Source: a virus. From it: a stretch of DNA of 51,988 bases. The DNA is taken from the IMG/VR virus record IMGVR_UViG_3300040801_006071, positions 1 through 51,988 of that record; one strand, given 5' to 3'. Below are positions 5,807 to 26,057 of this stretch, piece after piece (within the stretch, counting starts at the first letter, position 1; every line of letters begins with the position of its first letter). The notes beneath the pieces are model-generated. The model made no database searches and was not told the origin of the DNA. It saw nothing but the letters and a program-made list of their open reading frames with translations. The position numbers were made by a program, and so were the translations under genes.

Positions 5807-6267
5807 TTCCGAAACTCCGCTATGATTTTATCCACTTGCAAAGCCCAGTCGCTGTCCATCAGATGTGGGCAAATCTCGGCCTCGATCACGCCGACCGCTT
5901 TGAACACAAATTCGCGGAATTGATCCTCGCTCATGCTGTCGAAACGGGTTGAGATATAGTCGATCTCATGGCTGCGCCCGGTCAGGCGTGCGATATGGGC
6001 GGGCATTTCGCGCACCTTGTAATAGCCCATATGAATCTTGATTTCCCGGTGCAGGTCGTCTTGGCTCCAATTCTCGCCTGAGGCCGCCAGTGCCTTGACC
6101 ACATAGCCAAGCAGGCTGTGATAAAGCGCGTTGAATTTCTTGTTGCGCCCACGCGTGACCTTGACGGCGACCACCTCAAACTGGCTGAGCTTTTCCCACG
6201 CCTCGGCCACAGGTTGGCTATAGGGGCGCAGGCGACCATCGACATATTGGGCAAAATACGTTGGCAT
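5803..6267 (-). CDS. DUF1367-like phage protein
   Basis: This is a 154-residue protein. It begins MPTYFAQYVDGRLRPYS and contains the KFNALYHSLLGYVVKAL segment, the HMGYYKVREMP segment and FDSMSEDQFREFVFKAVGVI. Together these match the DUF1367 layout of phage early proteins, found beside ninB/ninG-type recombination genes. The biochemical role is unknown. The start at 6267 is chosen because it overlaps the Rha stop codon, whereas the longer frame upstream reads through the Rha coding region. The gene overlaps the methyltransferase by ATGA. Confidence 0.6.
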   Translation of the reverse strand: MPTYFAQYVDGRLRPYSQPVAEAWEKLSQFEVVAVKVTRGRNKKFNALYHSLLGYVVKALAASGENWSQDDLHREIKIHMGYYKVREMPAHIARLTGRSHEIDYISTRFDSMSEDQFREFVFKAVGVIEAEICPHLMDSDWALQVDKIIAEFRK

Positions 6268-6803
6268 CACGCACCGCCTTTCTGCGCGATCCGCCGCGTG
6301 TGGGCGCGCACATGGGTGCGGCCCTGGGCGCGGGTGTGATGCACCATCTGATTTTGCTGCAACTTTCCGTAAAGGCGGGCGGCATCTTCGCACATGTGTT
6401 GCGCATCGATCTGAATCGTAATGGCAGACCGGCGCAAAGTCTCGGCCTCTTGCAATAGCGTTTCAGGATCAAATGGCAGGGGCACACCGCTTGCGCGCAA
6501 TTGCGCCTCCATGGCATTGAAGGCCTCAAGGAATTTGATTTTCCATGCCAGCGCCCGCTTGCCCGTAAAGCCCATCACCAGAAGTGCGAAGCCGTCACGG
6601 GTCAGGGCATAATATTTATATTCGCGATTTTGACCCGCGCCGTGCGATACCTCACGGACCCGTTCCGCAAAATTACGGAGCCGGTATTCTTCTGGAATTT
6701 CGAATGCATCAATGCGCTTCAAAACATCATCATGTCGCTTGCCGAATTTCTCGGCAATGATCAGCGACGTGGTTTTCATATCTGGGGAAATCAAATCACT
6801 CAT
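6267..6803 (-). CDS. Rha-family phage regulatory protein
   Basis: This is a 178-residue protein. The N-terminal 90 residues carry the phage regulatory protein Rha domain: TTSLIIAEKFGKRHDDVLKR, then FGxGQNREYKYYALTRDGFALL and a GFTGKRALAWK segment leading into the FLEAFNAME helix. Rha proteins (phi80, P22 relatives) act in phage regulation and interfere with growth in hosts lacking IHF. The C-terminus is variable, helical and Arg/His-rich. The frame stays open for 1.7 kb upstream, but only this part is supported: the ATG at 6803 overlaps the preceding gene's TGA, and upstream sequence is occupied by genes on the other strand. Confidence 0.85.
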   Translation of the reverse strand: MSDLISPDMKTTSLIIAEKFGKRHDDVLKRIDAFEIPEEYRLRNFAERVREVSHGAGQNREYKYYALTRDGFALLVMGFTGKRALAWKIKFLEAFNAMEAQLRASGVPLPFDPETLLQEAETLRRSAITIQIDAQHMCEDAARLYGKLQQNQMVHHTRAQGRTHVRAHTRRIAQKGGA

Positions 6804-7069
6804 GACTTGCCCCCGCGCCGCGTGGCCAAATCCCGAATTTCGGCCGCCAAACCCGCCGCGCGTTTGCGGTTGATCCAACCCGCGTGCAACAACGCCTTGA
6901 AGCAACGCGCCCTTTTGTCGTCCGGGATATGTTGCAAGAACTCTTCTAATAGGTCGAGACAACCGTGAAGCCGGTCTATTGTGGTGTCGAGATCGTTGCA
7001 AAGTAGGTGAATATGCTTGGCGCGTTTGATTTGTTTTGGGCGCACCTGCCCATTTGCCGCCTGAGACAT
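6800..7069 (-). CDS. hypothetical helical early protein
   Basis: This is an 89-residue protein starting MSQAANGQVRPKQIKRAKH, rich in helix-forming residues (DTTIDRLHGCLDLLEEFLQH) and ending in basic residues. I do not recognise it. The start at 7069 is set by a strong ribosome site (GGAGG, 7 bases upstream). It is the first gene of the left half of the early operon and overlaps rha by ATGA, so the two are probably co-regulated. The N-terminal charge pattern suggests a DNA- or protein-binding accessory factor, but nothing more specific can be said. Confidence 0.6.
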   Translation of the reverse strand: MSQAANGQVRPKQIKRAKHIHLLCNDLDTTIDRLHGCLDLLEEFLQHIPDDKRARCFKALLHAGWINRKRAAGLAAEIRDLATRRGGKS

Positions 7070-7110
7070 TGGCGATCCTCCTTGGTTCAGTTTCAAAACC
7101 TAACCGCAAG

Positions 7111-7187
7111 AGGACCAACTCTTGGCGGCCAGATGGCACAGGATTGGTCCTACCGCACCAAGGAGCGGCGCACCCAAGGGTGCTCCT
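7111..7187. repeat. clustered inverted repeats upstream of the left early genes
   Basis: This is non-coding DNA with two dyads. AGGACCAA (7111-7118) pairs with TTGGTCCT (7144-7151). A long hairpin pairs GCACCC (7170-7175) with GGGTGC (7178-7183), with AGGA/TCCT extending it (7161-7187). They lie between the terminator at 7204-7229 and the gene starting at 7069, so they could be operators, a transcript leader structure or an antitermination site. Function is not established. Confidence 0.4.
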
Positions 7188-7203
7188 GCGCATCTGACCA
7201 TAG

Positions 7204-7229
7204 AAAAAGCCGCGACAATGGGCGCGGCT
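7204..7229 (-). terminator. intrinsic terminator on the minus strand
   Basis: Read on the minus strand, AGCCGCG (7229-7223) and CGCGGCT (7214-7208) form a 7-bp stem with an 8-base loop, followed by TTTTT (7208-7204). It would stop leftward transcription coming from the SSB/RecT half of the operon or antisense to the HigBA island. The left half of the operon therefore needs antitermination or its own promoter in 7070-7200. Confidence 0.65.
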
Positions 7230-7349
7230 ATCAGAGCGCCTTGGTACAGACAGGGGACCAACCCTGACGACAGTTTTTTGCTGCCGTGGGTTTACTCTAG
7301 CCCGATAAAACGATCCGCTCAAGCTCATTTTTGATAAGGGTGGTTCAAA

Positions 7350-7694
7350 ATGCGGGGAACGGTTTTGCAGTACCTCGTCAAAAGCAAATCCAGCGGCACC
7401 GAGTATTTGATTGAGGTTTACCCCACCGACGATGGCCCAATTATCACCTGCACATGTCCTGCTGGTCAAAATGGGCAGTTTTGCAAACATCGTTTCGGAC
7501 TGATTAAAGGCGAAGAGCACGAGCTTGTTCGATCTTCTCACCCTGTTTTTGACCTGCAAAACATGGTTTCTGGTCGTCGCTTGGAAGTGGCGATTAACGA
7601 AATGGTTAAACAGGAAAGAATCTTTCAACAAGCGCAATCCAGATTGCGCTCGGTCAAGAAATCGGTAGCGCGGATTATACTTGGACAAAGCTAA
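7350..7694 (+). CDS. SWIM-type zinc-finger protein, function unknown
   Basis: This is a 114-residue protein. The N-terminal half contains CTCPAGQNGQFCKHR, that is Cys34-x-Cys36-x8-Cys45-x-His47. This matches the CxCx(n)CxH SWIM zinc-finger pattern, which binds DNA or proteins. The C-terminal half is a basic helix (QAQSRLRSVKKSVARI). A ribosome site (AAGGGTGG) precedes the ATG. It is on the strand opposite to the surrounding early operon, directly upstream of higBA, so it looks like part of an inserted cargo island. A regulatory role is possible but unproven. Confidence 0.65.
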   Translation: MRGTVLQYLVKSKSSGTEYLIEVYPTDDGPIITCTCPAGQNGQFCKHRFGLIKGEEHELVRSSHPVFDLQNMVSGRRLEVAINEMVKQERIFQQAQSRLRSVKKSVARIILGQS

Positions 7695-7799
7695 AGCAAT
7701 AGCCGCCTCAATCTCGATACACGGTTTTTGCATGTGCATGAATAATGGGCAGAGCTGTATCGCAACTGTTAGAATTTCTGGTATTTTGTAAGCTTTTTG

Positions 7800-7828
7800 T
7801 TGACAAGTGTCATTGAAATGCTTACACG
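7800..7828 (+). promoter_or_regulatory. higBA promoter
   Basis: TTGACA at 7800-7805 is an exact -35 box. A weaker -10 (TTACAC/TACACG) follows at about 7822-7828, after a 16-17 base spacer. It lies just upstream of the preferred higB ATG (7836) and covers the alternative ATGs at 7797 and 7818, which argues for the downstream start. The box positions are seen; promoter activity is inferred. Confidence 0.6.
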
Positions 7829-7835
7829 CAAAGCC

Positions 7836-8111
7836 ATGATAAGAAGCTTTGCTAACAAACAACTCAAAGCCTTGTGGGAAGGCAAGCGCTCCAAGATTGA
7901 TCAACGTTTGCACGACCGAATCCTGCGCCGCCTTGATCGTCTTGATGCGGCAAGCCAGCCTGAGGATATGAACCTGCCGGGTTTTGATTTTCACACCCTG
8001 CGGGGGGTCACACCGACGCGGTACACGGTGCATGTGAACGGCCCGTGGTGTGTCACCTTTGCGTTTGAAAATGGCGATGCTTATGTGATCGACTTTGAGC
8101 AATACCACTAG
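7836..8111 (+). CDS. higB: HigB-like RelE-family toxin
   Basis: This is a 91-residue protein beginning MIRSFANKQLKALWEGK, the classic start of HigB/'plasmid maintenance killer' toxins. These are ribosome-dependent mRNA endonucleases of the RelE fold. Other family traits are the LPGFDFHTLRG segment (central Arg), the TVHVNGPWCVTFAFENGDA beta region and the VIDFEQYH C-terminus. The start at 7836 fits family length; two upstream in-frame ATGs overlap the promoter. Toxin-first order with higA 9 bases downstream is characteristic of HigBA. It inhibits growth unless neutralised, so it probably stabilises the prophage or blocks superinfecting phages. Confidence 0.9.
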   Translation: MIRSFANKQLKALWEGKRSKIDQRLHDRILRRLDRLDAASQPEDMNLPGFDFHTLRGVTPTRYTVHVNGPWCVTFAFENGDAYVIDFEQYH

Positions 8112-8120
8112 GAGGCCAAC

Positions 8121-8420
8121 ATGACCCGCGATCCAAACCGCTGCCCCACCCATCCCGGCGCATTGCTGCGCGAGGATGTGATCCCCGCAACCGGCAAACC
8201 CAAGGCTGAGATTGCCCGCCTGTTGGGCATTTCTCGTCAACAGCTTTACGACATCATGGCCGAGCACAAACCGGTTAGCGCTGCAACGGCGGTTCGTCTC
8301 GCCAAACTTTTTGGTGGTGCGCCTCTCTCGTGGTTGCGCATGCAAGCCGCCTATGACGAATGGCATGCCGTTCGGTCTGTCGATGTAAGCCACATCCAGA
8401 CCTTGGAAGGGGCGGTGTAA
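8121..8420 (+). CDS. higA: HigA-family antitoxin (XRE HTH)
   Basis: This is a 99-residue antitoxin. A family-typical start, CPTHPGALLREDVIPATG, leads into a helix-turn-helix (KAEIARLLGISRQQLYDIM). After it come the AVRLAKLFGG segment and SWLRMQAAYDEW, hallmarks of the HigA addiction-module family. It binds HigB and represses the higBA promoter. It has a strong ribosome site (AGGAGG, 6 bases upstream) and lies 9 bases after higB, so the pair is one transcript. It converges on ssb, whose stop is 66 bases away. Confidence 0.93.
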   Translation: MTRDPNRCPTHPGALLREDVIPATGKPKAEIARLLGISRQQLYDIMAEHKPVSAATAVRLAKLFGGAPLSWLRMQAAYDEWHAVRSVDVSHIQTLEGAV

Positions 8421-8485
8421 AAGATCGCCAACCACTCTGGGCTTCTGGCATTGGCCCGCTGTGCTATGATCCATTACCCCAGACA

Positions 8486-8944
8486 TCAAAACGGAATCTC
8501 ATCGTCGATATCGGTGCTAAGGCGGTTGCCCGCGCTATGACCGCCCGCGCGATCATCTTGATAGCCGCCGCTGGTGCTTGCGTTGCCCTCAGGCTTGGCG
8601 TCCAAGAATTTTAACTCACCGCCATAGGGGCGCAGGACAACCTCTGTTGTGTATCGATCTTGGCCGGATTGGTCCTGCCATTTGCGGGTTTCCAGTTTGC
8701 CTTCGATGTAAACCTTTGATCCTTTGCGCAGATATTGTTCGGCCAGTCGAACGATATGCTCGCTAAAGATGGCAACCGAATGCCATTCGGTGCGTTCGCG
8801 CCGTTCACCGGTGTTGCGATCTTTCCAGCTTTCCGATGTGGCAATGCGTAAATTGCAGACCTTGTTGCCGGTTTGAAATGACCGCACCTCGGGGTCACGA
8901 CCCAGATGGCCGATCAAAATCACCTTATTGACAGAACTGGCCAT
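8486..8944 (-). CDS. ssb: single-stranded DNA-binding protein
   Basis: This is a 152-residue SSB. The OB fold occupies residues 1-110: [20 protein letters not shown], then [12 protein letters not shown] and TEWHSVAIF. It is followed by a Gly/Ser-rich linker and the conserved acidic tip DDEIPF that docks partner proteins such as helicases and exonucleases. It coats ssDNA during phage replication and works with the adjacent RecT annealase. Its start shares one base with the stop codon of the preceding small gene. Length is slightly short but normal for phage SSB. Confidence 0.95.
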
Positions 8945-9174
8945 TACGCGCCCTCCTCGGCCGGGGTGCTGGGGTTCAGCTTGCGTTTCCCCAGGCCGGT
9001 GATGCGGTATCGCATTTCACCGTGATCAAGCACCGCGCGGGCCAATTTATGTGCAGCCAGATCATCAAGGATGCTTTCGTCAACCCCGATCTCAGCGGCT
9101 GAACAAAACTGCTGGCTGAGTTTGCCTAGGGCGATTTTATGGCGTTTTGTAATTTTTAGCATGCGCTTACCCAT
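8944..9174 (-). CDS. small hypothetical protein between ssb and recT
   Basis: This is a 76-residue protein starting [20 protein letters not shown]. The rest ([20 protein letters not shown], then [13 protein letters not shown]) resembles a winged-helix-like small basic protein; the ending [12 protein letters not shown] is typical of a winged-helix beta hairpin. No family is firmly recognised. The start is uncertain (9174 or 9162). The ATG at 9174 overlaps the recT stop by 8 bases, as expected in this coupled operon. Position suggests a recombination or replication accessory. Confidence 0.55.
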
Positions 9175-10252
9175 TGGACAGACCATCACGGCGGGTATCT
9201 GCGGCCTGCATGATCTGATCATGGAATGCGGTGCCTTCGGTTTGTTCGATCTGGGCGGCGTAAATTTCCATCACAGCCTCAACCGCGCCCTGATCATTGG
9301 CGGCGACCAATTCCTCGGTGATTTTTGTTACAAAGCCTGAGAAATCCGGGGCACTGTTTTGTTCATCATCCGGCGCTTTGGTTGGTGCTTTATCTTCAGG
9401 CGCAGGGGGGGCGGTGTTTTCGGCTGATGTGCTGTCTTGCCCCTCAGGTTTACCACCTTCGATGATCCCATCATCAGATGCCGGGCCGGGTGTCGGCATG
9501 CCCTCAGCGGGTTGCATCGCAAAGCCCGAAAAATCGGCCGCCTGCCCGTCCACCTCAAGCGCATCAACCACCTTTTCGATTGAGATCGGCAATTCGTTAA
9601 ACAACGCCCGCACGGCGGTTTTGCGCGCCATCTGATGTTCATGCGCAATCCAAGGGTTATCTTTCTTGCCGTATTTGAGGGCCGTTTTATAGCCTTGTGA
9701 TGCATCGCGCACCTTCAAAACCTCGGCATAGGGCAAAACGATAAAGGCCTCGCCATCGGTCAGTTTAGCATGGCAATAGGCATGTGTGGGGGTGTTACGC
9801 GCGCTGCCCGGAATGTGGCGCAGATGTTGGTTTGAGCCGTATTCATAGGAAAATTCATCATTATCATAAACAACATCAGCATGGATATTGACCACGTGAC
9901 CCGACCGGCGGGCCAGATCAATCATGCCTTTATAGCCCAAGACCAACTGAATTTCGGTGATGCCTTTGCGCTTGTTATCAAACGGGATCAAATAGGCATG
10001 GCCAAGCACCGTGTTGGGTTCCAGACCAAGGCTGGCGCAGGTCATCATCGACCCCAGCAAGGTCAGCGGGTCACTTTGGGCCAATTTCGGCGTGGTGCGA
10101 ATGGCATTGGCCATCAACCGCATCATGCGTTCGGGCTTCATATGCTTGGCCGCTACAAGTTGCAGCTGATCACGGGCCATATCGTTGACCAATAGCTCTT
10201 GCACGGTCTGGACTTGGCGCAAGGGTTTCGTGATGGCAGTTTGTTTGGTCAT
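9167..10252 (-). CDS. recT: RecT-family ssDNA annealing protein
   Basis: This 361-residue protein belongs to the RecT/Redbeta-like recombinases that anneal complementary single strands and promote strand invasion. The core at residues about 20-215 shows the family features MKPERMMRLMANAIRTTPKL, then CASLGLEPNTVLGHAYLIPF, VLGYKGMIDLARRSG, and a TAVRALFNELPIS segment. The C-terminal about 130 residues are Pro/Glu/Ala-rich and low in complexity, variable in this family. The gene lies in the early operon with ssb. No exonuclease partner (RecE, lambda exo or YqaJ type) is evident beside it. Confidence 0.92.
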   Translation of the reverse strand: MTKQTAITKPLRQVQTVQELLVNDMARDQLQLVAAKHMKPERMMRLMANAIRTTPKLAQSDPLTLLGSMMTCASLGLEPNTVLGHAYLIPFDNKRKGITEIQLVLGYKGMIDLARRSGHVVNIHADVVYDNDEFSYEYGSNQHLRHIPGSARNTPTHAYCHAKLTDGEAFIVLPYAEVLKVRDASQGYKTALKYGKKDNPWIAHEHQMARKTAVRALFNELPISIEKVVDALEVDGQAADFSGFAMQPAEGMPTPGPASDDGIIEGGKPEGQDSTSAENTAPPAPEDKAPTKAPDDEQNSAPDFSGFVTKITEELVAANDQGAVEAVMEIYAAQIEQTEGTAFHDQIMQAADTRRDGLSNG

Positions 10253-10992
10253 AGCTTGCGTTCCTCTTGGATATCAAAACCGGGGATAGTGATGGCCTTG
10301 CCCTTGGCGGCGCGCAATTCGGCATTGGCCAAGCGCAACAACAGATCGGTCATTTCGGGATGCGCCCGGTAATGCAGCATCGCCTGATTGACATTGGTGA
10401 TTTCGGCATAGCGGCGGGTGCGCAGGGCCGTGCGTTTGCCGCCCCCCGTTGCGGAATCCAATTTTGTGCTTTGGGCTTTCTGCGCCTCGGCTTCGGCTTC
10501 ACGGGCAGCGACGGCACGTTTTTCGGCCTCTTGCTGGCCTAATATGTCATTGCGGACTTCGGCCTGTTTGCGGGCCTGTTCGGCCTGTTCAGCCTCAGCT
10601 TGGGCTTGGCGTTTCTCCTCGGCGCGGCGGGCACGTTCTTTGGCCTCTTCGGCGCGTAAAAAGGCTTCAACCAATGGTTTGACAAGACCGGCTGCGCGTT
10701 CGACCGTTTCGCGCACCTCACCGAAAGCCGCATCAATGGCACGGCCCGCTTCATAAAAAGGCTTTTTTTCCAGCTTTCGGCGCTCTTCAATGTCTTTGAA
10801 CAGTTTTCGGGCACCGCTTAAAAAATCATTAGCTTGCTGTGCCTGTTCGCGGGTGGTGATTTCGCCGGCATCTTTCCAAGAACCTGCGACATCAGCCATA
10901 TTGCGCGCCTTATCGGCCAGTTCAGCCACAATATCAGGGTTAAAGGCCGGACCTTGGTTGTGGTCATTGGGCGCGGGCGTCATATCGTTCAT
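10249..10992 (-). CDS. coiled-coil early phage protein, RecT-associated
   Basis: This is a 247-residue protein. It starts with a conserved-looking acidic/HNQGP segment, then FLSGARKLFKDIEERRKLEK. About 75 residues (110-185) of charged Ala/Glu/Arg/Gln repeats form a long predicted coiled coil. The C-terminal domain (RYAEITNVNQAMLHYRAHPE, then LLLRLANAELRAAKG) is the probable functional end. Proteins with this layout are frequent next to recT in alphaproteobacterial prophages; their function is unknown to me. It is coupled to recT by ATGA, suggesting a role in recombination or nuclease inhibition. Confidence 0.7.
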   Translation of the reverse strand: MNDMTPAPNDHNQGPAFNPDIVAELADKARNMADVAGSWKDAGEITTREQAQQANDFLSGARKLFKDIEERRKLEKKPFYEAGRAIDAAFGEVRETVERAAGLVKPLVEAFLRAEEAKERARRAEEKRQAQAEAEQAEQARKQAEVRNDILGQQEAEKRAVAAREAEAEAQKAQSTKLDSATGGGKRTALRTRRYAEITNVNQAMLHYRAHPEMTDLLLRLANAELRAAKGKAITIPGFDIQEERKL

Positions 10993-11007
10993 GATGTGTT
11001 CCTTGTG

Positions 11008-11391
11008 TTATGGGCGCATAATGGTGGTGGTTAGGTCAAAGGGCACATGGGTGGCCGCCATATCCGGCAAGGCCGCGCGCAAGGCGATAAGATGTTCATA
11101 TTCCGTCTTAGAGATTGGGTACTTACTTAACCAAATCCATTCGCGATCGGGGTCACGGCGTTCTCCATCAACCTCACACAGCAATCGTTCGTCATCGATT
11201 AGTTCACCGGTCTGTGGGCAAATATCGCGTTCAACCCAGATACGGGCGGGCACATAAGGCCCCTGACGCACCATGCGGGTTTTGAACCAACCCATTTGCG
11301 GTTCAGATTCATGGACCGGTGGGTTTTTTCCGGCTAATGCGGAACGGTGCCATTTTAACAAGTTTGCAATAGGTGTGGGTTGGCGCATCAT
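11008..11391 (-). CDS. conserved phage hypothetical protein
   Basis: This is a 127-residue protein. The pattern MGWFKTRMVRQGPYVPARIW, a variable acidic part, then WIWLSKYPISKTEYEHL is one I associate with conserved unknown proteins of alphaproteobacterial phages. No catalytic motif is visible. It overlaps the upstream gene by ATGA and lies 15 bases from the coiled-coil gene, so it is an integral member of the early operon. No function is proposed. Confidence 0.65.
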   Translation of the reverse strand: MMRQPTPIANLLKWHRSALAGKNPPVHESEPQMGWFKTRMVRQGPYVPARIWVERDICPQTGELIDDERLLCEVDGERRDPDREWIWLSKYPISKTEYEHLIALRAALPDMAATHVPFDLTTTIMRP

Positions 11392-11618
11392 ACCGCATAC
11401 CCCCCGGTTGCTTTGGCCGCTGTGCTGAACAAATCGGCCAGTTTTCGTAGGTCGGTTGGCGCAAGGTAGAAATCATCTAGATCAGCCGGTGATGTGCCCT
11501 GCATGACAGCGTAGTCGTGAAATTCCATGCGAATATCGCCGCGTATTGCGCAAACTAAGACTGTGACAGAAAACCCGGGATGATTCATCTTGCCTTCGAA
11601 ATCGTGAAACTGCTTCAT
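11388..11618 (-). CDS. hypothetical early protein
   Basis: This is a 76-residue protein starting MKQFHDFEGKMNHPGFSV and continuing with an acidic C-terminal half (DLDDFYLAPTDLRKLADLF). The start at 11618 is chosen because it forms an ATGA overlap with the upstream stop, the rule in this operon; a longer frame exists but would overlap that gene. I do not recognise a family. Confidence 0.55.
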   Translation of the reverse strand: MKQFHDFEGKMNHPGFSVTVLVCAIRGDIRMEFHDYAVMQGTSPADLDDFYLAPTDLRKLADLFSTAAKATGGYAV

Positions 11619-11803
11619 GAGAACACCAACCCAAACAGCAGCAGTATCCATGTCAGGACGACCAACGCTATTGTGCCCAAAAGGTCGCCCAAAAATTGCC
11701 ACCAGCTATCCCATAAAAAGCCCCGGCGGGCGGGAGGAGTGCCCGCCGAGGAAGGTGGTGCGCGACGAGGGGCGCGCGCACTGGCAGAAAACATAGGGAT
11801 CAT
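11615..11803 (-). CDS. small membrane protein
   Basis: This is a 62-residue protein. The N-terminal 30 residues are basic and rich in Ala, Pro and Arg. The C-terminal 25 residues form one strong transmembrane segment (LGDLLGTIALVVLTWILLLF) that ends the protein. The start at 11803 has an ATGA overlap with the preceding gene and the stop overlaps the next start the same way. A tail-anchored inner-membrane protein made early could affect host physiology or superinfection, but that is inference. Confidence 0.5.
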   Translation of the reverse strand: MIPMFSASARAPRRAPPSSAGTPPARRGFLWDSWWQFLGDLLGTIALVVLTWILLLFGLVFS

Positions 11804-16947: not shown

Positions 16948-17859
16948 ATGAGTAACATCGTGGCGGCCATATGCCAAAAACGTATCTTCGGTTCAGGGCC
17001 GAAGAAGGCTGTGATCATGTATATGGCAGACCGGGCCAGTGATGAAGGCGAAGGGGTATGGACCAGCAAGCGAACAATCGCAGACGATACCGAGCTTGCC
17101 AAACGCACAGTGCAAAATGCCATTCAGCATTTTCTTGACACAGGCCTAATCTCTCAGATCGGTCGGCGATCGTGCCAAAACGGGTTTACCTATGAATATC
17201 AAATCAACCTAAAAGCGGTCGAGCAGCTTCCACTAACCTCTGATCACGAGCGCAAAAGCACGGGTGCAACAGGTGCACCCCTGCCTGATTGGGGTGCAGG
17301 AGATTCACCTGACACATGCACCACATGCACCCGACAGGTGCAGGACATGCACCCGACACATGCACCACATGCACCCAAACCATCCATGAACCATCCTTTA
17401 ACCATCCATGAACCATCCAACGCGCAGGCGCGCGATGACAGGGAACCAGTTATTTTCGATGATGGCCCACCTCCCCAAACGGTATGGAAGGGCGGCCTGC
17501 GGGAAGGCTGCGCTACCATCGAGGATGAATTCGAAAAAGTCTGGCCGCATTACCGGGCCATTCGAAACTGCCCGAAGAAACCAGCCATCAAAGCGTGGCG
17601 AGCCGCAAGGCGAAAGGCCTGTTTCGCCGAAATTGCCGCTCCGCTTGCGGCCTACATCAAGGGCCGCACAGGCAAAGATCAGCAATTCACCAAGCATTTG
17701 TCCTCTTGGCTAAATGCCGAATCCTGGACGGAGGAACCAGAGGCGCTGCTGTCGGGTAAAGAAACGGCCCAAGATCGAAAGGCCCGGCTTTTAGGGGGGC
17801 AAACCACCACAGCCCAAAAACGGCGCGATGTGCCTTTGTTATTGAACGGCGGGGCATGA
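16948..17859 (+). CDS. helix-turn-helix replication-initiator-like protein
   Basis: This is a 303-residue protein. The N-terminal 90 residues form a winged HTH (KAVIMYMADRASDEGEGVW, then SKRTIADDTELAKRTVQNAI and FLDTGLISQIG) like phage O/RepA-type initiators and DnaD-like proteins. The middle (about 95-165) is a low-complexity linker with Thr-Cys-Thr and His-Ala-Pro repeats. The C-terminal domain has FEKVWPHYRAIRNCPKKPAI and FTKHLSSWLNAESW, a pattern seen in phage replication proteins. A ribosome site (AGGAAGG) supports 16948. An origin may lie in or near this gene, but no iterons were seen. Confidence 0.65.
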   Translation: MSNIVAAICQKRIFGSGPKKAVIMYMADRASDEGEGVWTSKRTIADDTELAKRTVQNAIQHFLDTGLISQIGRRSCQNGFTYEYQINLKAVEQLPLTSDHERKSTGATGAPLPDWGAGDSPDTCTTCTRQVQDMHPTHAPHAPKPSMNHPLTIHEPSNAQARDDREPVIFDDGPPPQTVWKGGLREGCATIEDEFEKVWPHYRAIRNCPKKPAIKAWRAARRKACFAEIAAPLAAYIKGRTGKDQQFTKHLSSWLNAESWTEEPEALLSGKETAQDRKARLLGGQTTTAQKRRDVPLLLNGGA

Positions 17860-19055: not shown

Positions 19056-19285
19056 AAGGCCACCCCCGCATAAGCCCGATCTATCGTCTGGCCCAGCCCG
19101 ACACCCCTGACCCGGATCGCCACTTTGCCCGCATCTGGCGGTGGTGCCGTGATCTTTGGGTGCAAAACGGCACCATCGTCGCCAAACCCGCCGAATTGCC
19201 TGAAAATATAAGGGCCTCTATGATCCAATGGGCCAATGACACTTACGGAGAACACCGCAATGGCAAGAAAAGGCGCCGCCCGTAA
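19052..19285 (+). CDS. small basic hypothetical protein
   Basis: This is a 77-residue protein, rich in Arg and Trp (HFARIWRWCRDLWVQNGTIV) with a basic C-terminus (GKKRRRP). The start overlaps the previous stop by ATGA, and its last 26 bases overlap the next gene in another frame. No family is recognised; the charge suggests nucleic-acid contact. Confidence 0.45.
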   Translation: MKGHPRISPIYRLAQPDTPDPDRHFARIWRWCRDLWVQNGTIVAKPAELPENIRASMIQWANDTYGEHRNGKKRRRP

Positions 19286-19934
19286 AGTGGCCGGTTTATT
19301 GCGCCCGACCTTGAACCAAGGCGGCCAGGTCGCACGCCTAACAGGCCGTGCGGATATATATGAACGCCATGGCACACGGCTTGAACAAATCAACACGCCC
19401 GGCGTAAAGGTCAAAACCCGTGTGTTGCTATCGGGGCGCATCCGGCTGAATGACACCCTGCGCGGGGTGGGCAATGTCTATGGTGCCTCAGCCGAGGAAA
19501 TCCGCATCGGCCTATCGGGTGAATTTCTGCCAGAAATTGTGGATGGCGGCCAGAAATCCGCCGGCGGCATCACCCCGCATCTGGTGGCCGTGGCCCAGCG
19601 CGTCAGGTTTGCCCAAGCAGCCCTTGCCGATCTGCCCACCATCCGCCACCGCGCGACATCCCAACAAGGCGCAGGCCCGCACCGCCCCCTCACCCACCGC
19701 GATCTGATCGACACTGTCTGTGTCGAAGGCACAGAGCTGACCGAAATCGCCCTGCGCTATGGTTGGTACATCCGCGGCCTGCGCAAAGACGGCACACCCA
19801 AATACACCATCCCCAAACAACAATCCCAAAAACTAAAAGCCGCGTTGGTTGATGGGCTTGAGGCCATCGAAACCACATGGCGCGCGGAGGGAATTGATAT
19901 CAGCGGCTTGGTGGGTGGGGTTGAGGTGGGGTAA
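19260..19934 (+). CDS. last early gene before the CRISPR array; Q-position protein
   Basis: This is a 224-residue protein starting MARKGAARKVAGLLRPTLNQ, behind a ribosome site (GGAGAACACCGC). It contains LTHRDLIDTVCVEGTELTEI, followed by ALRYGWYIRGLRK, which could be a helix-turn-helix. No family is recognised. It ends 3 bases before the first CRISPR repeat, leaving no leader on that side. Because it is the last early gene and the next non-CRISPR element downstream is a lambda-like late promoter/terminator pair, it occupies the place of the late antiterminator Q. That is inference from gene order only. Confidence 0.55.
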   Translation: MARKGAARKVAGLLRPTLNQGGQVARLTGRADIYERHGTRLEQINTPGVKVKTRVLLSGRIRLNDTLRGVGNVYGASAEEIRIGLSGEFLPEIVDGGQKSAGGITPHLVAVAQRVRFAQAALADLPTIRHRATSQQGAGPHRPLTHRDLIDTVCVEGTELTEIALRYGWYIRGLRKDGTPKYTIPKQQSQKLKAALVDGLEAIETTWRAEGIDISGLVGGVEVG

Positions 19935-19937
19935 AAT

Positions 19938-20369
19938 GTTGCGGCTGGACCTCGAATTCTGAACTGCTATACTCGCCGTTTCAAATACGGTCGCGCGGTC
20001 GCGGTTGCGGCTGGACCTCGAATTCTGAACTGCTATACTTCTTCGGTCCCCGCCGCCACGCCCGTGCCTGTTGCGGCTGGACCTCGAATTCTGAACTGCT
20101 ATACTCGTCTTGGCCAATGGCCAGCGGTCGCCAAAGTTGCGGCTGGACCTCGAATTCTGAACTGCTATACTATGAACTGGAAATAACAGATAGCGTTGAA
20201 AGTTGCGGCTGGACCTCGAATTCTGAACTGCTATACTAAAAGGAAACCAAAGCATGACAATATCAGCGTTGCGGCTGGACCTCGAATTCTGAACTGCTAT
20301 ACTGACGTGCCTGTTGATGACGCGCTGCGCGAAGTTGCGGCTGGACCTCGAATTCTGAACTGCTATACT
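19938..20369 (+). CRISPR. type II-C CRISPR array, 7 identical repeats, 6 spacers
   Basis: Seven identical 36-base repeats start at 19938, 20004, 20070, 20136, 20202, 20268 and 20334, separated by six spacers of exactly 30 bases. The repeat begins GTTGCGGCTGGACC and ends TGCTATACT. The ending is an extended -10 promoter box (TG-n-TATACT), as in Neisseria II-C repeats. Each spacer should therefore be transcribed from the repeat before it, rightward, against the cas genes. Orientation is confirmed by the anti-repeat of the tracrRNA at 25097. The first repeat follows a stop codon by 3 bases. No spacer was seen to match elsewhere in the window. Confidence 0.98.
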
Positions 20370-20370
20370 T

Positions 20371-20416
20371 GATACACTTCCAAGACCCTGAAATAAAATG
20401 GGTTTTGGAAGGTATC
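20371..20416. other. long hairpin between CRISPR array and cas2
   Basis: GATAC plus a 12-bp arm (20371-20388) pairs with the arm ending GTATC (20400-20416), with one bulged base, one G-T wobble and an 11-base AT-rich loop. It sits exactly where array transcription (rightward) and cas transcription (leftward) meet. It lacks a T-run, so it is not a standard terminator. It could be a processing or convergent-termination hairpin, or part of the site where new spacers are added. Confidence 0.6.
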
Positions 20417-20442
20417 ATTTGCGGGAATCTGTATAAAACACA

Positions 20443-20787
20443 TCAAAATAACGCCAATTGTTCCGGGTTTTTTCGCGCGGCTTGTCTGCCTTGGTCGGAA
20501 TAATGAACAATATCACGGTATTGCCGGTCGGTAAAGTTAAGGATCTGGATGTCGCCTTTATCCGGCAGGTGCCGCTCGATTCGGGCGACGCGTGTCTGAA
20601 AGGCCTCTTTCCCGTTCACAAATCGCGCATAGACCGAAAACTGACTGCGCTCAAACCCTTCATCCAACAAAAAATTACGAAACCCGGTTGCCGCCTTGCG
20701 TTGCCGTTTCGTGTCAGTTGGAAGGTCAAACATCACAAGAATCCACATGATCCGGTATCCTGACAAAAAGGTAGGGTGGGCTGTCAT
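20443..20787 (-). CDS. cas2: Cas2 adaptation nuclease
   Basis: This is a 114-residue protein with a ferredoxin-like Cas2 core: MWILVMFDLPTDTKRQRKAA, then FLLDEGFERSQFSVYARFV. The catalytic-type Asp follows the first strand (MFDLP). With Cas1 it forms the integrase complex that adds spacers. The short N-terminal extension before MWILV (TFLSGYR) is usual in type II-C Cas2. The start at 20787 forms an ATGA overlap with the cas1 stop, and the gene is the last of the cas operon, 73 bases from the array. Confidence 0.95.
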   Translation of the reverse strand: MTAHPTFLSGYRIMWILVMFDLPTDTKRQRKAATGFRNFLLDEGFERSQFSVYARFVNGKEAFQTRVARIERHLPDKGDIQILNFTDRQYRDIVHYSDQGRQAARKNPEQLALF

Positions 20788-21695
20788 GTACCCAACCCCG
20801 CAAGGGTTAAGGGGTCGGGCGGCGCAGGCAGCGCAAGGTTGACTTTCCCGGTTTCAAAGCTTTGACCCAATGAAATGGCAAGTTTGCCAAGTGCGACGGA
20901 AACCGGGGTCAGCCCCTGACCCAATGGCAGGTCAAGCGCGATCAGACGGGCGAGGGTTTGTTTGGCCTCCGTATTTACCTCTGGGCCATTGCGCGCGGCA
21001 AGGCTGCGCACACAACAATCGACAAGCGGGCGGAAGGGTTCCATCAAATCATCAGCCAAGGCAAAGGCATTGCCCCGATTGGAATGATGCAACCCAATAG
21101 ATGGATGCAGACCCGCGGCCACAACCGAACGCGCCGTGGCCGCGCGCAAAACAGTATATCCATAATTCAAAAGCGCATTCACATCAGGCGCCGCGCGATC
21201 GCGCCGAAACTCTTTGCCCATCATACGCGGCCAATAATATCGGGCGGCTTGGGCTTCGATATTTGTGCTATCGCCACTTGTTACTTTGCGTTTCATCATG
21301 GTGATGGGCGCGCTAATCTGACCGGTGGCATCAAGGGCGGCGGCCTGCATGGTGATTTTGGATAACACCACATGTTTCCATGCCTGTTTCATAAATGGGG
21401 TTTTGGCCTGCCATTGCGCCCGCAAACGCCCGCCTTGGGCATGATGCCCCTCTAACGGGAGAAAAACAGACCGCGGCGCGTGATTGGCGGCGCATAACAC
21501 AACCGGCGCACCGCGATCGGCCAATTCTGTCAACAATGAGGTGCTGCATGTGGTGCCATGGGCATGGATGATAACAGCGGTGATTTGATCAAGCGGAATA
21601 CGCCCAATTTCTTGCGCTCCTGCGCTGACCTTTAGAAACCCACGATCGCGCGACAAATGCCGGCCATCGGTTGAAATATCTATGATTTGATCCAT
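20784..21695 (-). CDS. cas1: Cas1 spacer integrase (type II)
   Basis: This is a 303-residue protein with the full Cas1 fold length. The metal-binding residues are visible: Glu147 (NIEAQAARYYW), His203/His204 (IGLHHSNRGN) and Asp216 (LADDLMEPFRP). NALLNYGYTVLRAATARS is typical of type II Cas1. The start at 21695 is chosen over a longer frame that would overlap cas9; it begins MDQIIDISTDGRHLS, the usual N-terminus, and has GAGGG upstream. It lies 46 bases after cas9. All catalytic residues are intact, so the phage system looks able to acquire spacers. Confidence 0.95.
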   Translation of the reverse strand: MDQIIDISTDGRHLSRDRGFLKVSAGAQEIGRIPLDQITAVIIHAHGTTCSTSLLTELADRGAPVVLCAANHAPRSVFLPLEGHHAQGGRLRAQWQAKTPFMKQAWKHVVLSKITMQAAALDATGQISAPITMMKRKVTSGDSTNIEAQAARYYWPRMMGKEFRRDRAAPDVNALLNYGYTVLRAATARSVVAAGLHPSIGLHHSNRGNAFALADDLMEPFRPLVDCCVRSLAARNGPEVNTEAKQTLARLIALDLPLGQGLTPVSVALGKLAISLGQSFETGKVNLALPAPPDPLTLAGLGT

Positions 21696-21741
21696 GGCAC
21701 CCTCTTGCAAGTCTTTGAAAGGATAGCTTTTATACGCAAAG

Positions 21742-24700
21742 CTATTTCTTTTGACGTCGCGCGCCATCGCGCAACCGCCCAATTTCGTCGACCGACACAC
21801 GGCGAATATTGGCCACGATTGCAGGCCGGGCGGCGATCTGAATCCATTTGAACGGGTCGGTTTTGTCGTTGGTGCGTTCAGATGCATTTGCTTCGTTATG
21901 GGGAACAATGAACAAACCGTTTCCCATATCCATTTTTTGGATATGCCCAATCACCGTTTTGCCATCCCGTTCTAATGCCACCATGTCACCTTTATGCACG
22001 CACAAAAGGCGTTTGGCCGCCGGGTGGGGGCGTTTGGGTGATTTCAGACTATGGGCCTCATAAGTGGTGATGACCTGGGCCTGAATTTTACCATCGGGCA
22101 GGCGCCAGATTTCAAAACAATGATTGCTGCCACCCTGATACGCCTTGATCGGATCATTGGCGGGTACAGCTATCCGCGCCTGTTCTTGCAAGGGTTTGAT
22201 GATGCGCACACGGCGGATTCCTTGATAAGGGCCGGGTTTGGCCGCGAAATAGCGCAGAGCGGCCTCGTATTCCTTGCCGGTTTTATCTTTGGTCGCCACG
22301 CGCAATGCGTTGCGCAATTGTGGGTCGCGGATTTGACCGCCTTTTCCGCTTTTATCAAGTAATTGTGCGGGCTTGACACTTAACAAATCAGTTCGGCTGG
22401 CGACATGAGCATCATCAACGATGGAATAGGCCGTTTCCTGGTGTAACGGCCCGGCTGTGCTGTCTTTTCCGTGTTTGCGGCCTTCCATGTCTATCCTTCC
22501 GTGATCGGCGCGGTGGCTGACGATCAGGGTATCAAGCCGTGCACGCAGATCATCGCGGAATTCCGGCCATGGTGAGGGTGTTTCACGTGCGATCATTTCG
22601 GCCGATTGGCCTGCCTCTTCACCCCGGCCAGAGGCGCGGCTGATTTGGTTTAACAATCCACGGTCGGTTGCGGCCACCACGGCGGCGTCAATGGCGTGAT
22701 GGCGATGATCTGTGCGGTTTTTGGATTTGGCAACACCGCGATCCTTATCGCTTAGTAATGCATTCAACCCCCAATGGCGGCGTAACATTTCGGTCAACCG
22801 CCCCGGCACAACCCAAACATGACCACCTTTGGTAAAAAGCGTATCCAGATAGGTCCGCGATATCCGGGCAAGATATTGGGTATCCACCAAGGCGCGATCC
22901 AGAAAATCATTTTCGCCTTCAAACCGTTCCATCGCGTCTGACGCGAACCGCCAGCGTTTATTGTCGGGCAGGTTTTTGAGGTTTGCCTCAATCGGATCCC
23001 ATTGTGATGTGTTGCCCCATGCCTCCCACGGGGTTTGGTTACGTTTTTGGCGGTTGGCTTCTTGCAGGCACAAGGTGCGGTTGGCAAAACTATCGTCAAG
23101 CGTGCGCGAATAAGGCAGGATGTGATCCACATCACAGGCGGTAAAGACCATCCCTATTGAAATACGTTTACCCGTATAAGGGCAAAATCGGCGCATGATA
23201 TCATCGGGGTTCAGATCTTCCCAAAGGCGCAAAAGCATGCGATTGCGGCCATTATCGGCGATGCCAAGCTCTTGCAATTTTTCACTGCGTTTTATGGCGG
23301 CGGTGGTGGCAGTATTAATATTGCGGGTGGTCTCTTTTTTCTGCTGTTCCGATTGTTTCAGATCGCGGGCCAGTTCTACGACGATCTGATCGGGCTTGCC
23401 ATAGGTTTCGATGATCTTGTTGACCACCCGCCGCAATTGGTTCAGCCCGATATGCACGGTTGGGTTGGTGATGCGGCCATATCGCGTGACATCATCGTCA
23501 CTGTCGTCATAAGTGCCGGGAATAACGTGACGATCCAACACTTCGCCATAATAGGGCAGGCGATCAAGGCATTCGCCTCTGCGTTGGTTAGAATGGTGCC
23601 AGCCGCAATCGGTAACGGCTTGGGCATAGGCCATGACCGCCGCCTGCAATTTTTCCAAAATACGGGTTGTCGCCGTTAACCCCAAACGGCCATATCCTTC
23701 GGGAAGGACGATATTGGCACTTGCCGTTTTTTCGGCCTTATCACGGTCAAGCTTATGGGTTTGCATCAACCAATCCACCAATGCAGCGTATTCCGTATCG
23801 CTTTGCACGTCACGGATGCGGGAAATCACCTGCCATTGCGCGTCAAGATCAAGCGTTGACCAACGCGGCCCAAACCTGTCGGGATGGGTAAAGACGGAGC
23901 GAACCGGATCACAAGCAATGCCATCACGCACCCCGGTTTCCAATGTAAACCGTTCCCCATCGCGCAGCTTTAACGCCTTGGCCATTGCAGGTAATTTTAT
24001 GACCATCGATTTCAAAGATGCCGTTGGCTTTTTATTATCCAACATATGGATGATATGATCGCGTTCTTCCAAAAGTAACGGGCAGGTTGCTTTGCCATCT
24101 GATGTTATGCGCAACTGGTTTACCGTTTCAAAAACAACCCGGCGTTGGGTCAATGGATGGGCCTTTGGCAGGCGATGTTCCCCCGTAAACAGGCACAGAC
24201 CCACTTTGGGGTCTTTTAAGGGGCGTTGATAAAAGATTTTTTCAAACACCAAATCGCGCAAATCTTCGGTGAGTTCAGGGTGGTATTCGGCCTGTGCGGC
24301 CCATAATTTGTAAAATTCTTCTTCGAGGTGCCGACGGTCGGGATAGAAATCGTAACCGGCCTCTTCTTTTGCTTCAGGCCCGCCGCGTGCGGCCACCGAC
24401 AGCCGGGTACGCACCGTGGGCATATGCCGGTAATCAAGCCTTGTGCCGTCTTTGTTTGTTTTTGGTTCTGTTGCTGGCTTTTCATTCAGCTTGCACCGCC
24501 GCATATGAAGAAATTCGCCAAGGGTGCGTGCACCGTTTGCCATGATCTCTATATCAAGCCGGGCGGTCGCATCCTTGATTTTACCGCTTTCATTGTCACC
24601 GCGATCTGTTTTGCGGTTTGATTTGAACCCGCGTCTTTGGTTCAGGTGAAACAACGCCCGGCCCAAATGCGGCAGTGGCAGGGCTTGATCCAAGCCGGTT

Positions 24701-25002
24701 GCACGCAGGGTGTAGGGATCAAGATCGGCCAAGGCCTTGGCCTCAACCGAGTCGGTTGGCATTAACCCGGCATTGGCAAGAACCTTCATCAATGTGGCGC
24801 GGCGTTTCAAATAACGGTCACGGCGGCGGCGCATGGCGCGTGCAACCCGTCGATCCACGGCCAAAGATGCCTTTGATTTCGGATCACGCCCATCAGAAAA
24901 AATGCGCACACCGCCATCTATGACACCTGTAATTTTGATGCCATCCGTTTTGTAAAGCCACCACCCAATTGAATTTGTACCAATATCTAAACCCAAACGC
25001 AT
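21742..25002 (-). CDS. cas9: Cas9 nuclease, type II-C
   Basis: This 1086-residue protein has the compact II-C length. All nuclease residues are present: RuvC-I Asp6 (LGLDIGTNSIGW), an Arg-rich bridge helix (VARAMRRRRDRYLKRRATLM), RuvC-II Glu543 (IVVELARDL), HNH Asp626/His627 and Asn650 (DVDHILPYSRT), and RuvC-III His769/Asp772 (HHAIDAAV). The C-terminus (about 880-1086) is the PAM-interacting region. It is predicted to cut DNA guided by crRNA:tracrRNA. GAGGG lies 7 bases before the ATG. The tracrRNA is transcribed divergently from the same 94-base intergenic region. There is no csn2 or cas4, which fits II-C. Confidence 0.97.
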   Translation of the reverse strand: MRLGLDIGTNSIGWWLYKTDGIKITGVIDGGVRIFSDGRDPKSKASLAVDRRVARAMRRRRDRYLKRRATLMKVLANAGLMPTDSVEAKALADLDPYTLRATGLDQALPLPHLGRALFHLNQRRGFKSNRKTDRGDNESGKIKDATARLDIEIMANGARTLGEFLHMRRCKLNEKPATEPKTNKDGTRLDYRHMPTVRTRLSVAARGGPEAKEEAGYDFYPDRRHLEEEFYKLWAAQAEYHPELTEDLRDLVFEKIFYQRPLKDPKVGLCLFTGEHRLPKAHPLTQRRVVFETVNQLRITSDGKATCPLLLEERDHIIHMLDNKKPTASLKSMVIKLPAMAKALKLRDGERFTLETGVRDGIACDPVRSVFTHPDRFGPRWSTLDLDAQWQVISRIRDVQSDTEYAALVDWLMQTHKLDRDKAEKTASANIVLPEGYGRLGLTATTRILEKLQAAVMAYAQAVTDCGWHHSNQRRGECLDRLPYYGEVLDRHVIPGTYDDSDDDVTRYGRITNPTVHIGLNQLRRVVNKIIETYGKPDQIVVELARDLKQSEQQKKETTRNINTATTAAIKRSEKLQELGIADNGRNRMLLRLWEDLNPDDIMRRFCPYTGKRISIGMVFTACDVDHILPYSRTLDDSFANRTLCLQEANRQKRNQTPWEAWGNTSQWDPIEANLKNLPDNKRWRFASDAMERFEGENDFLDRALVDTQYLARISRTYLDTLFTKGGHVWVVPGRLTEMLRRHWGLNALLSDKDRGVAKSKNRTDHRHHAIDAAVVAATDRGLLNQISRASGRGEEAGQSAEMIARETPSPWPEFRDDLRARLDTLIVSHRADHGRIDMEGRKHGKDSTAGPLHQETAYSIVDDAHVASRTDLLSVKPAQLLDKSGKGGQIRDPQLRNALRVATKDKTGKEYEAALRYFAAKPGPYQGIRRVRIIKPLQEQARIAVPANDPIKAYQGGSNHCFEIWRLPDGKIQAQVITTYEAHSLKSPKRPHPAAKRLLCVHKGDMVALERDGKTVIGHIQKMDMGNGLFIVPHNEANASERTNDKTDPFKWIQIAARPAIVANIRRVSVDEIGRLRDGARRQKK

Positions 25003-25054
25003 TTTATGCCCTCATCCATAAATTTGAAAAAACTTTCCAATAAGAATGACGCAA

Positions 25055-25090
25055 TTTCAACTTGAAACTATGAACAATTTGAGCTATGTA
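25055..25090 (+). promoter_or_regulatory. tracrRNA promoter with overlapping dyad
   Basis: TTGAAA (25062-25067), a 17-base spacer and TATGTA (25085-25090) form a good sigma70-type promoter, placing the start at about 25097, the first base of the anti-repeat. The -35 box is the right half of a perfect dyad, TTTCAA-C-TTGAAA (25055-25067), a possible operator that could coordinate tracrRNA with the divergent cas9 promoter. Confidence 0.7.
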
Positions 25091-25096
25091 CATATT

Positions 25097-25178
25097 GTTC
25101 AGAATTCGCGGTCGAGCCGTTAACAAGTTCGAAAGAGCACCACATTCAAGCGCGTCCTACGGGGCGCGTTTTGCTTTT
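25097..25178 (+). ncRNA. tracrRNA of the phage type II-C system
   Basis: The anti-repeat is at 25097-25124. Its first 12 bases GTTCAGAATTCG are fully complementary to repeat bases 16-27. The next 4 of 6 bases pair across a mismatch-flanked segment, AGCCG pairs with repeat bases 5-9, and AAC with bases 1-3. Then follow a nexus hairpin GTTC(GAAA)GAGC (25127-25138) and a terminator stem CGCGTCC/GGGCGCG (25151-25168) closed by a TACG tetraloop and followed by TTTTGCTTTT. It guides Cas9 together with crRNA. About 80 nt is normal for II-C tracrRNA. Confidence 0.9.
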
Positions 25179-25257: not shown

Positions 25258-25287
25258 TTGACAAAATGAGTCCTTAGGGCTTATCAA
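25258..25287 (+). promoter_or_regulatory. candidate late promoter (pR'-like)
   Basis: TTGACA (25258-25263) is an exact -35 box. TATCAA (25282-25287) is a weak -10 after 18 bases, or TTATCA after 17. A terminator begins about 10 bases after the expected start. This promoter-terminator pair in front of the whole late region copies the lambda pR'-tR' layout, where Q antiterminates. Sequence elements are seen; antitermination is inferred. Confidence 0.5.
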
Positions 25288-25304
25288 ATACCTAAGCTGA
25301 AATT

Positions 25305-25332
25305 GCGCCTATCGGATTGATGGGCGCTTTTT
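25305..25332 (+). terminator. intrinsic terminator ahead of the late genes
   Basis: GCGCCTATC (25305-25313) pairs with GATGGGCGC (25319-25327) in a 9-bp stem (one G-T pair) with a GGATT loop, followed by TTTTT. It would end a short RNA from the 25258 promoter and also stop any read-through from the tracrRNA before the late genes start at 25355. Confidence 0.8.
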
Positions 25333-25354: not shown

Positions 25355-25558
25355 ATGACTGACAAATCCAATCTTACCTCTGTATCCCCTACCCGCCTAG
25401 GCAGGCTATCCCGTATCACAGGGCGTGATCCTGTGGATATTGAGGCGATGATCAAGCGTGGGGCAGCTATCTTGAAAGGACCGCAAGATGGACCTGATAG
25501 TTGCCCCTGGGGATCGGCTCCTCAGTCGATTCGCAAATGCCATCGGCGCCTTATCTGA
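25355..25558 (+). CDS. small hypothetical protein, first late gene
   Basis: This is a 67-residue protein starting MTDKSNLTSVSPTRLGRLSR. The first 50 residues look like a real protein with a helix (GRDPVDIEAMIKRGAAILKG). The last 24 residues overlap the next gene in a different frame. GGGGTG precedes the ATG. It begins 22 bases after the late terminator. No family is recognised. Confidence 0.45.
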   Translation: MTDKSNLTSVSPTRLGRLSRITGRDPVDIEAMIKRGAAILKGPQDGPDSCPWGSAPQSIRKCHRRLI

Positions 25559-26057
25559 ACGTGATGGGCACAGGGCGTTGGCGCGAGCTGTAAACCGCAC
25601 CACAAGGTCTGCTCAATCGCGTGTAATTAGTGCCATTGCACGCCAATCTTCAATCCCACGGCAGATCGTAAAATCTCAAATCAGCCGCACTCAGGTTCAG
25701 CCTGGTGGCAATGGTGTAATCGAAGGGCGTGTCGTTGCAACCGGACGGTCAATCGCTTTGCGGGAATTTGGTGCAAGGCAATTTAGCTGGGGCGTGCGTG
25801 CCCGTGTATGGGGTGAAACCCAACGATATGACGGGATGTTCATTTACGCAGGGACATTCAGGTCAGGCCAAGAGATCGCCAGTGGCCATGTCTTTCAACG
25901 TGTTACGACGCGGTCTTTGCCCATTGCCAAACAATATGGCCCATCGGTACCAACAGAAATGGTGCGCAATGCAAGCGCCCAAGAGTTCAACCGCACTGTT
26001 GATGAGATGCTGCCCGCGCGTATCCGGCATGAACTGTCACGTCTGCTACCGACATAG
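25488..26057 (+). CDS. phage minor tail protein Z-like
   Basis: This is a 189-residue protein. The N-terminus (LARAVNRTTRSAQSRVISAI, then ARQSSIPRQIVKSQI) is typical of the lambda Z/'prophage minor tail protein Z' family. It continues with VIEGRVVATGRSIALREFGA and GHVFQRVTTRSLPIAKQYGP, where the C-terminal segment is well conserved. Lambda Z finishes the head-proximal end of the tail before joining. A good ribosome site (GAAAGGA) precedes the ATG. Its place upstream of the terminase genes, away from the other tail genes, is unusual. Confidence 0.75.
   Translation: MDLIVAPGDRLLSRFANAIGALSERDGHRALARAVNRTTRSAQSRVISAIARQSSIPRQIVKSQISRTQVQPGGNGVIEGRVVATGRSIALREFGARQFSWGVRARVWGETQRYDGMFIYAGTFRSGQEIASGHVFQRVTTRSLPIAKQYGPSVPTEMVRNASAQEFNRTVDEMLPARIRHELSRLLPT

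Follow-up and report, generated by a model that had tools for sequence, protein, structure and literature searches.

An apparently intact type II-C CRISPR-Cas9 module inside a contractile-tailed temperate phage

We analyzed the whole IMG/VR record IMGVR_UViG_3300040801_006071, 51,988 bases of viral DNA (hereafter the window), with particular attention to positions 19,938 to 25,178, where an array of clustered regularly interspaced short palindromic repeats (CRISPR), a set of cas genes and a trans-activating CRISPR RNA (tracrRNA) lie between the early and the late genes of a phage. An earlier reading made from the letters alone (the sequence-only reading) had described a seven-repeat array, cas2, cas1, cas9 and a tracrRNA at this site, and all of these were recovered by repeat, profile and duplex analyses. 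From left to right, the locus and its two neighbors are as follows.

19236..19934, plus strand: last early gene, the left border, with its stop codon 3 bp ahead of the first repeat
19938..20369, plus strand: CRISPR array of seven identical 36-nucleotide (nt) repeats and six 30-nt spacers
20375..20430, between the last repeat and cas2: hairpin CTTCCAAGACCCTGAAATAAAATGGGTTTTGGAAGG, kept in seven relatives
20443..20787, minus strand: cas2
20784..21695, minus strand: cas1, type II (NMENI)
21742..25002, minus strand: cas9, 1086 amino acids
~25097-25178, plus strand (divergent from the cas genes): tracrRNA with anti-repeat, hairpins and a rho-independent terminator stem at 25148-25171
25488..26057, plus strand: gpZ-like gene (Minor_tail_Z / neck; PF06763, phrog_27), the first late gene and the right border

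The cas genes were identified with curated TIGR models, Pfam and PADLOC. Specifically, the cas9 product scores 559 bits with TIGR01865 (cut-off 100) and has the Pfam domains HNH_4, RuvC_III and Cas9_a, the cas1 product matches PF01867 (E 3e-32) and TIGR03639 cas1_NMENI (231.7 bits, cut-off 120), and the cas2 product matches PF09827 (E 1e-14) as well as TIGR01573 above its cut-off. When Cas9 is aligned to solved Cas9s, the RuvC and HNH catalytic residues are all kept (D6, E543, H627 with N650, and H769/D772), as the sequence-only reading had claimed. These three genes are the only occupants of 20443-25002; csn2, which marks subtype II-A, and cas4, which marks subtype II-B, are both absent, and since the locus has no room for either of them its anatomy is that of subtype II-C. 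Cas1 exhibits 72-85% identity to chromosomal homologues, and Cas9 81% identity to its counterparts in L005 (Loktanella) and L006 (Aliiroseovarius).

The repeats of the array are exact copies starting at 19938, 20004, 20070, 20136, 20202, 20268 and 20334, a regularity far beyond a chance origin, and the repeat is nearly identical to repeats from the host family. The 3' end of every repeat forms an extended -10-like element, TGCTATACT, with a TGGACC -35-like hexamer 16 nt upstream; a scan of the region for promoter-like sites returned 15 against 5.8 expected, and seven of the 15 are these sites, one per repeat. Repeat ends resembling an extended -10 element have also been reported for two other type II-C systems, that of N. 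meningitidis, where transcription starts inside every repeat, and that of C. cellulolyticum (PMC7038990). The hairpin that separates the array from cas2 is probably a terminator common to the array and the cas operon. On the other side of the module, the duplex of anti-repeat and repeat reaches -42.1 kcal/mol versus a mean of -17.2 (standard deviation 4.6) for random 46-mers of the window, and the tracrRNA sequence is nearly identical across six relatives. A scan with Rfam gave no match to a tracrRNA family, its sole match being an unrelated C4 RNA. Overall, the module shares with the type II-C systems of N. meningitidis, C. cellulolyticum and chromosomal L005 and L006 the order cas9-cas1-cas2 without csn2 or cas4, an array opposite the cas operon and a divergent tracrRNA. 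It differs from the chromosomal loci in lying inside a complete temperate phage and in having a lower GC content like that of the phage. Judged from its sequence, the module is a complete and apparently intact type II-C CRISPR-Cas system.

The carrier is a temperate phage of ~50 kb with a contractile tail, having integrase, CI, replication, late and lysis genes, and its host is best explained as a Rhodobacteraceae-like (marine-type) bacterium. The left part of the record holds the integrase, then a leftward operon (methylases, helicase, single-stranded DNA-binding protein, RecT) and the CI repressor, followed by a rightward early operon for a RuvC-like resolvase, a methyltransferase and a replication protein. 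The CRISPR module comes next, and after it the late operon runs through gpZ, ParB-methylase, TerS, TerL, portal, protease, capsid, baseplate, tail sheath and tape measure; an amidase gene comes last. Each phage module occurs in one copy, in the usual order and orientation.

The borders of the module within this phage are sharp. DNA homology common to the other loci extends exactly from 19937 to ~25180, in agreement with the right end at 25178 given by the sequence-only reading. The early gene at 19236-19934 has a complete C-terminus by comparison with its homologues in L043 and L044; it could be regarded as a late regulator by its position only. To the right, the record is collinear with the late operon of Mae-JY30 from gpZ (25485) onward. 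No host gene stands between the module and its neighbors, and both sides are genes of one phage, with flanks that are single, complementary modules. TerL at E <1e-100 was found in 4 of 395 genomes (family of the Loktanella genome). Among the prophages of these four, L128, which is without CRISPR, has homologues of the early genes (RecT 66%, RuvC 40%, RepO 29% and the gene at 17861 42%) together with homologues of the late genes ParB-methylase, TerS and TerL (53%), early and late in the same order as in the window with no CRISPR between them. Because L128 joins both sets in order, the two halves of the window represent one phage type. This, along with the complementary flanks, the absence of interposed host genes and a uniform GC content, bears out the earlier claim that the whole II-C system lies within one phage, and it speaks against the possibility, raised at the time, that the early and late flanks belong to different elements.

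A second pair of prophages shows what kind of site the module occupies. L129 and L130 have 85-92% DNA identity over matched blocks and 88-90% flanking the site directly upstream of gpZ, which is contiguous and empty in L129 (9853|9882, reverse strand of the locus) and filled in L130 by ~1.5 kb (7647-9153, reverse strand) containing the toxin-antitoxin genes Fic/DOC, MazE-like and PIN. This difference marks the site as a cargo slot, which CRISPR-Cas occupies in the window. More generally, Mae-JY30 and prophages L128-L132 share the homologous late operon (gpZ, ParB-methylase, TerS, TerL, portal), with L128 sharing early homologues as well; they differ in being without CRISPR, the slot before gpZ being empty or holding toxin-antitoxin or small genes. 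The comparison with CRISPR-less prophages that had been proposed for finding the exact insertion borders thus yielded the gene order of L128 and the slot of L129 and L130, but no exact empty site for the window phage, since the last early gene had homologues in degraded prophages only. The border argument therefore rests on L128-L131 and Mae-JY30. Carriage of the CRISPR system by the phage is well supported.

We also compared composition and selection. The module has 52.4% GC, with 55% GC at third codon positions (GC3) in cas9, and the window phage has 53-55% GC; the nearest relatives have 59-62% GC and 69-76% GC3. That the module matches its phage, unlike these relatives, indicates that it did not join recently from their chromosomes. 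Against relatives, the nonsynonymous to synonymous ratio (pN/pS) is 0.16-0.20 for cas9, 0.12-0.15 for cas1 and 0.07-0.11 for cas2, with synonymous sites near saturation, a pattern of purifying selection on all three genes. Given the GC match and this selection, the module looks long resident and maintained, neither a recent graft nor a relic. A Cas9 tree places the window in a clade of six members (support 100), the others being a satellite, L027, and sequences from Loktanella, Aliiroseovarius, an alphaproteobacterial metagenome-assembled genome and Mesobacterium.

The cas lineage is scarce among phages. It was not found in the 50,697 phages of INPHARED, where the single match had 27% identity, and scans of IMG/VR with cas9 and with cas1 agreed on three contigs, of which two are identical where they overlap, so that only two other distinct elements there carry it. 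Most of the nearest Cas9 relatives reside on chromosomes and islands: a genome scan gave 22 bacterial loci at 54-80% identity, several of which adjoin serine recombinases, integrases or transposases, and 37 Pseudosulfitobacter plasmids have a relative at 65%. In L029 (IMG/VR 3300013122_000399) and L009 the lineage lies directly beside a serine recombinase, and one of these contigs has phage replication genes.

The sister copy in L027 (IMG/VR 3300010013_000013) resides in a 16.9 kb element bounded by attachment (att) sites, a 14-bp repeat of the 3' end of tRNA-Ser at 86-99 and 16952-16965. The element encodes an integrase, head decoration, a protease-capsid fusion, portal, TerL, TerS and primase, and has no tail or lysis genes. 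From this gene content it is a capsid-forming, tail-less satellite integrated at tRNA-Ser. Its CRISPR module (6244-11734) lies between the TerL and portal genes, an interval that holds other cargo in ~20 CRISPR-less relatives, and in its cas9 a TGA stop takes the place of a conserved Trp, as it does in the assembly of a second metagenome (L028). A remnant of an L027-type satellite in Primorskyibacter flagellatus (L026, 10001-16719) retains a cas9 fragment, the ends of TerL and capsid, head decoration and integrase. In Maritimibacter HTCC2654 (L024, 7501-8772) a satellite-type integrase (66% identity) lies 1.2 kb from a II-C cas9. Spacers of three chromosomal or mobile II-C loci (L016, L019 and L029) have 18-19-nt exact matches in tail-less satellite relatives (L107, L112 and L117), in the portal gene in at least some cases and above a rough reversed-spacer control (3 matches). 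These matches are a weak hint that the II-C lineage may target tail-less satellites. More broadly, it is possible, though we hold this only tentatively and at less than even odds, that the lineage is a recurrent self-contained cargo module across Rhodobacteraceae phages, capsid-forming satellites, islands and plasmids, one that enters defense and cargo slots such that rival phages and satellites fight with sister Cas9 systems.

For the window itself, we favor the reading, at a probability of roughly three in four, that the module is type II-C adaptive immune cargo (a moron) in a variable slot between the early region and gpZ of a contractile-tailed temperate phage. The anatomy of the module, its completeness, its intact catalytic residues, its place within one phage and its maintenance by selection are all observed. 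Its most likely role, inferred from completeness and maintenance, is immunity of the lysogen and the prophage against competing mobile DNA. In the lysogen, cas9-cas1-cas2 would be transcribed from their own minus-strand promoter, and the promoter within each repeat would give rise to short CRISPR RNAs (crRNAs) that pair with the divergent tracrRNA. Cas9 armed with this pair would cut invading DNA that matches a spacer, and Cas1-Cas2 would insert new spacers. Keeping out plasmids, satellites or phages that compete would benefit lysogen and prophage alike, and the system would move with the phage.

Several points weigh against this reading. The six phage spacers, searched jointly, gave no convincing target in INPHARED, in PLSDB or in 395 Rhodobacteraceae genomes, and exact 20-nt seeds of spacers 3 and 5 found no target in IMG/VR. 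Expression, cleavage, spacer acquisition, targets and packaging are all inferred. The record was assembled from a metagenome and comes without reads, no att repeat of at least 11 bases was found between its ends, and the integration borders were not located. Finally, the GC match could stem, in part, from a low-GC host before capture. Note that matches to the 395 genomes did occur and were rejected as targets, being either hits that spanned spacer junctions or GC-rich chance matches. The spacers likewise matched nothing convincing among all fetched loci, satellites and islands included.

The alternative that survives best, which we regard as unlikely, is that the phage CRISPR mainly destroys host defense islands or phage satellites in lytic infection, a counter-defense for which ICP1 is the studied precedent (PMC11656645). 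The array shares its strand with the last early gene and begins 3 bp beyond it, such that early transcription could enter it, and this bacterial family also harbors tail-less satellites that have related integrases and CRISPR. However, the spacers match no satellite, island or phage among those searched, and promoters within the repeats permit expression in the lysogen. Since no protospacer was found, target evidence cannot choose between lysogen protection and such counter-defense. A good deal less probable is that the module is in decay, an inactive relic that the phage carries as a passenger. The stop codon in the satellite cas9 of L027 and the mere cas9 fragment of L026 fit such decay, but in the window every module gene is open and conserved, the repeats do not differ from one another, and the tracrRNA and terminators are conserved. 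It is more improbable still that a chromosomal host CRISPR locus was trapped between two prophage remnants, or that the assembly is a chimera. The mostly chromosomal or island location of the closest Cas9 relatives and the missing att sites in an assembly without reads could be taken that way; against them stand the single-copy phage modules in correct order and orientation, the union of both halves in CRISPR-less L128, the lack of an interposed host gene and a composition that is this phage's and unlike that of the chromosomal relatives. Equally improbable is an anti-CRISPR mimic whose Cas9 and tracrRNA sequester host crRNAs like the dead-RuvC II-C Cas9 of PMC10910872, for although the phage does carry a II-C Cas9 and tracrRNA and a repeat almost the same as host-family repeats, the published decoys are without arrays and here the nuclease, the phage's own array and the acquisition genes, with cas1 and cas2 under purifying selection, are intact.

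The remainder of the record has several other features. A C4 antisense RNA (7121-7205, minus strand; Rfam RF01695, 56.5 bits) lies inside the leftward operon, comparable to the antirepressor control region of P1/P7. Ahead of the late operon, at 25258-25327, a TTGACA-type promoter-like sequence is directly followed by a terminator-like hairpin. The arrangement may, by analogy with lambda pR'-tR', serve antitermination, and the last early gene is a candidate for its regulator. At the right end, 50767-51282 encodes a DUF488 protein matching the PADLOC candidate defense families PDC-M19/M45, and 51338-51988 encodes its partner, which has no assigned function; the pair may be either phage cargo or host genes. 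When the left-end genes were checked for host origin, weak homologues (26-36% identity) were found in 10 of 149 genomes. No tRNA was found in the record.

Complete virus-encoded CRISPR systems are already known, mostly from jumbo phages and from ICP1. According to a 2024 review, few phages smaller than 200 kb have CRISPR systems, which are numerous in jumbo phages (PMC11656645), and type II nucleases have been reported from phages (Al-Shayeb 2022, as cited in PMC12607003). The sequence-only reading had called the system unusual because known phage systems are few and mostly type I or miniature. Its rarity holds for this lineage, given the counts in INPHARED and IMG/VR, whereas the phrase "mostly type I or miniature" gives too little weight to the systems of jumbo phages. 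The latter resemble the window in being virus-borne and, according to citing papers, in including type II nucleases (Al-Shayeb et al. 2022, cited in PMC11656645 and PMC12607003), and differ in mostly being without acquisition genes (PMC13037316), whereas the window has cas1-cas2 on a phage of ~50 kb. ICP1 likewise carries a complete system with array and adaptation genes (PMC11656645), but that system is type I-F, in a lytic phage and with anti-PLE spacers, while the one in the window is type II-C, in a temperate phage and with no spacer target found. A phage II-C Cas9 with a tracrRNA has also been described (Altae-Tran et al. 2023, PMC10910872); its RuvC is inactive and it is without array or adaptation genes, all of which the window has intact. 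What is notable here is that a temperate phage of ordinary size has a complete, intact adaptive II-C system in its cargo slot. Where the II-C Cas9 of PMC10910872 is a decoy whose nuclease domain is dead, the window offers an intact system with acquisition genes and a natural test case for whether prophages adaptively immunize their lysogens, and the sister copy on a satellite suggests a route of horizontal CRISPR spread.

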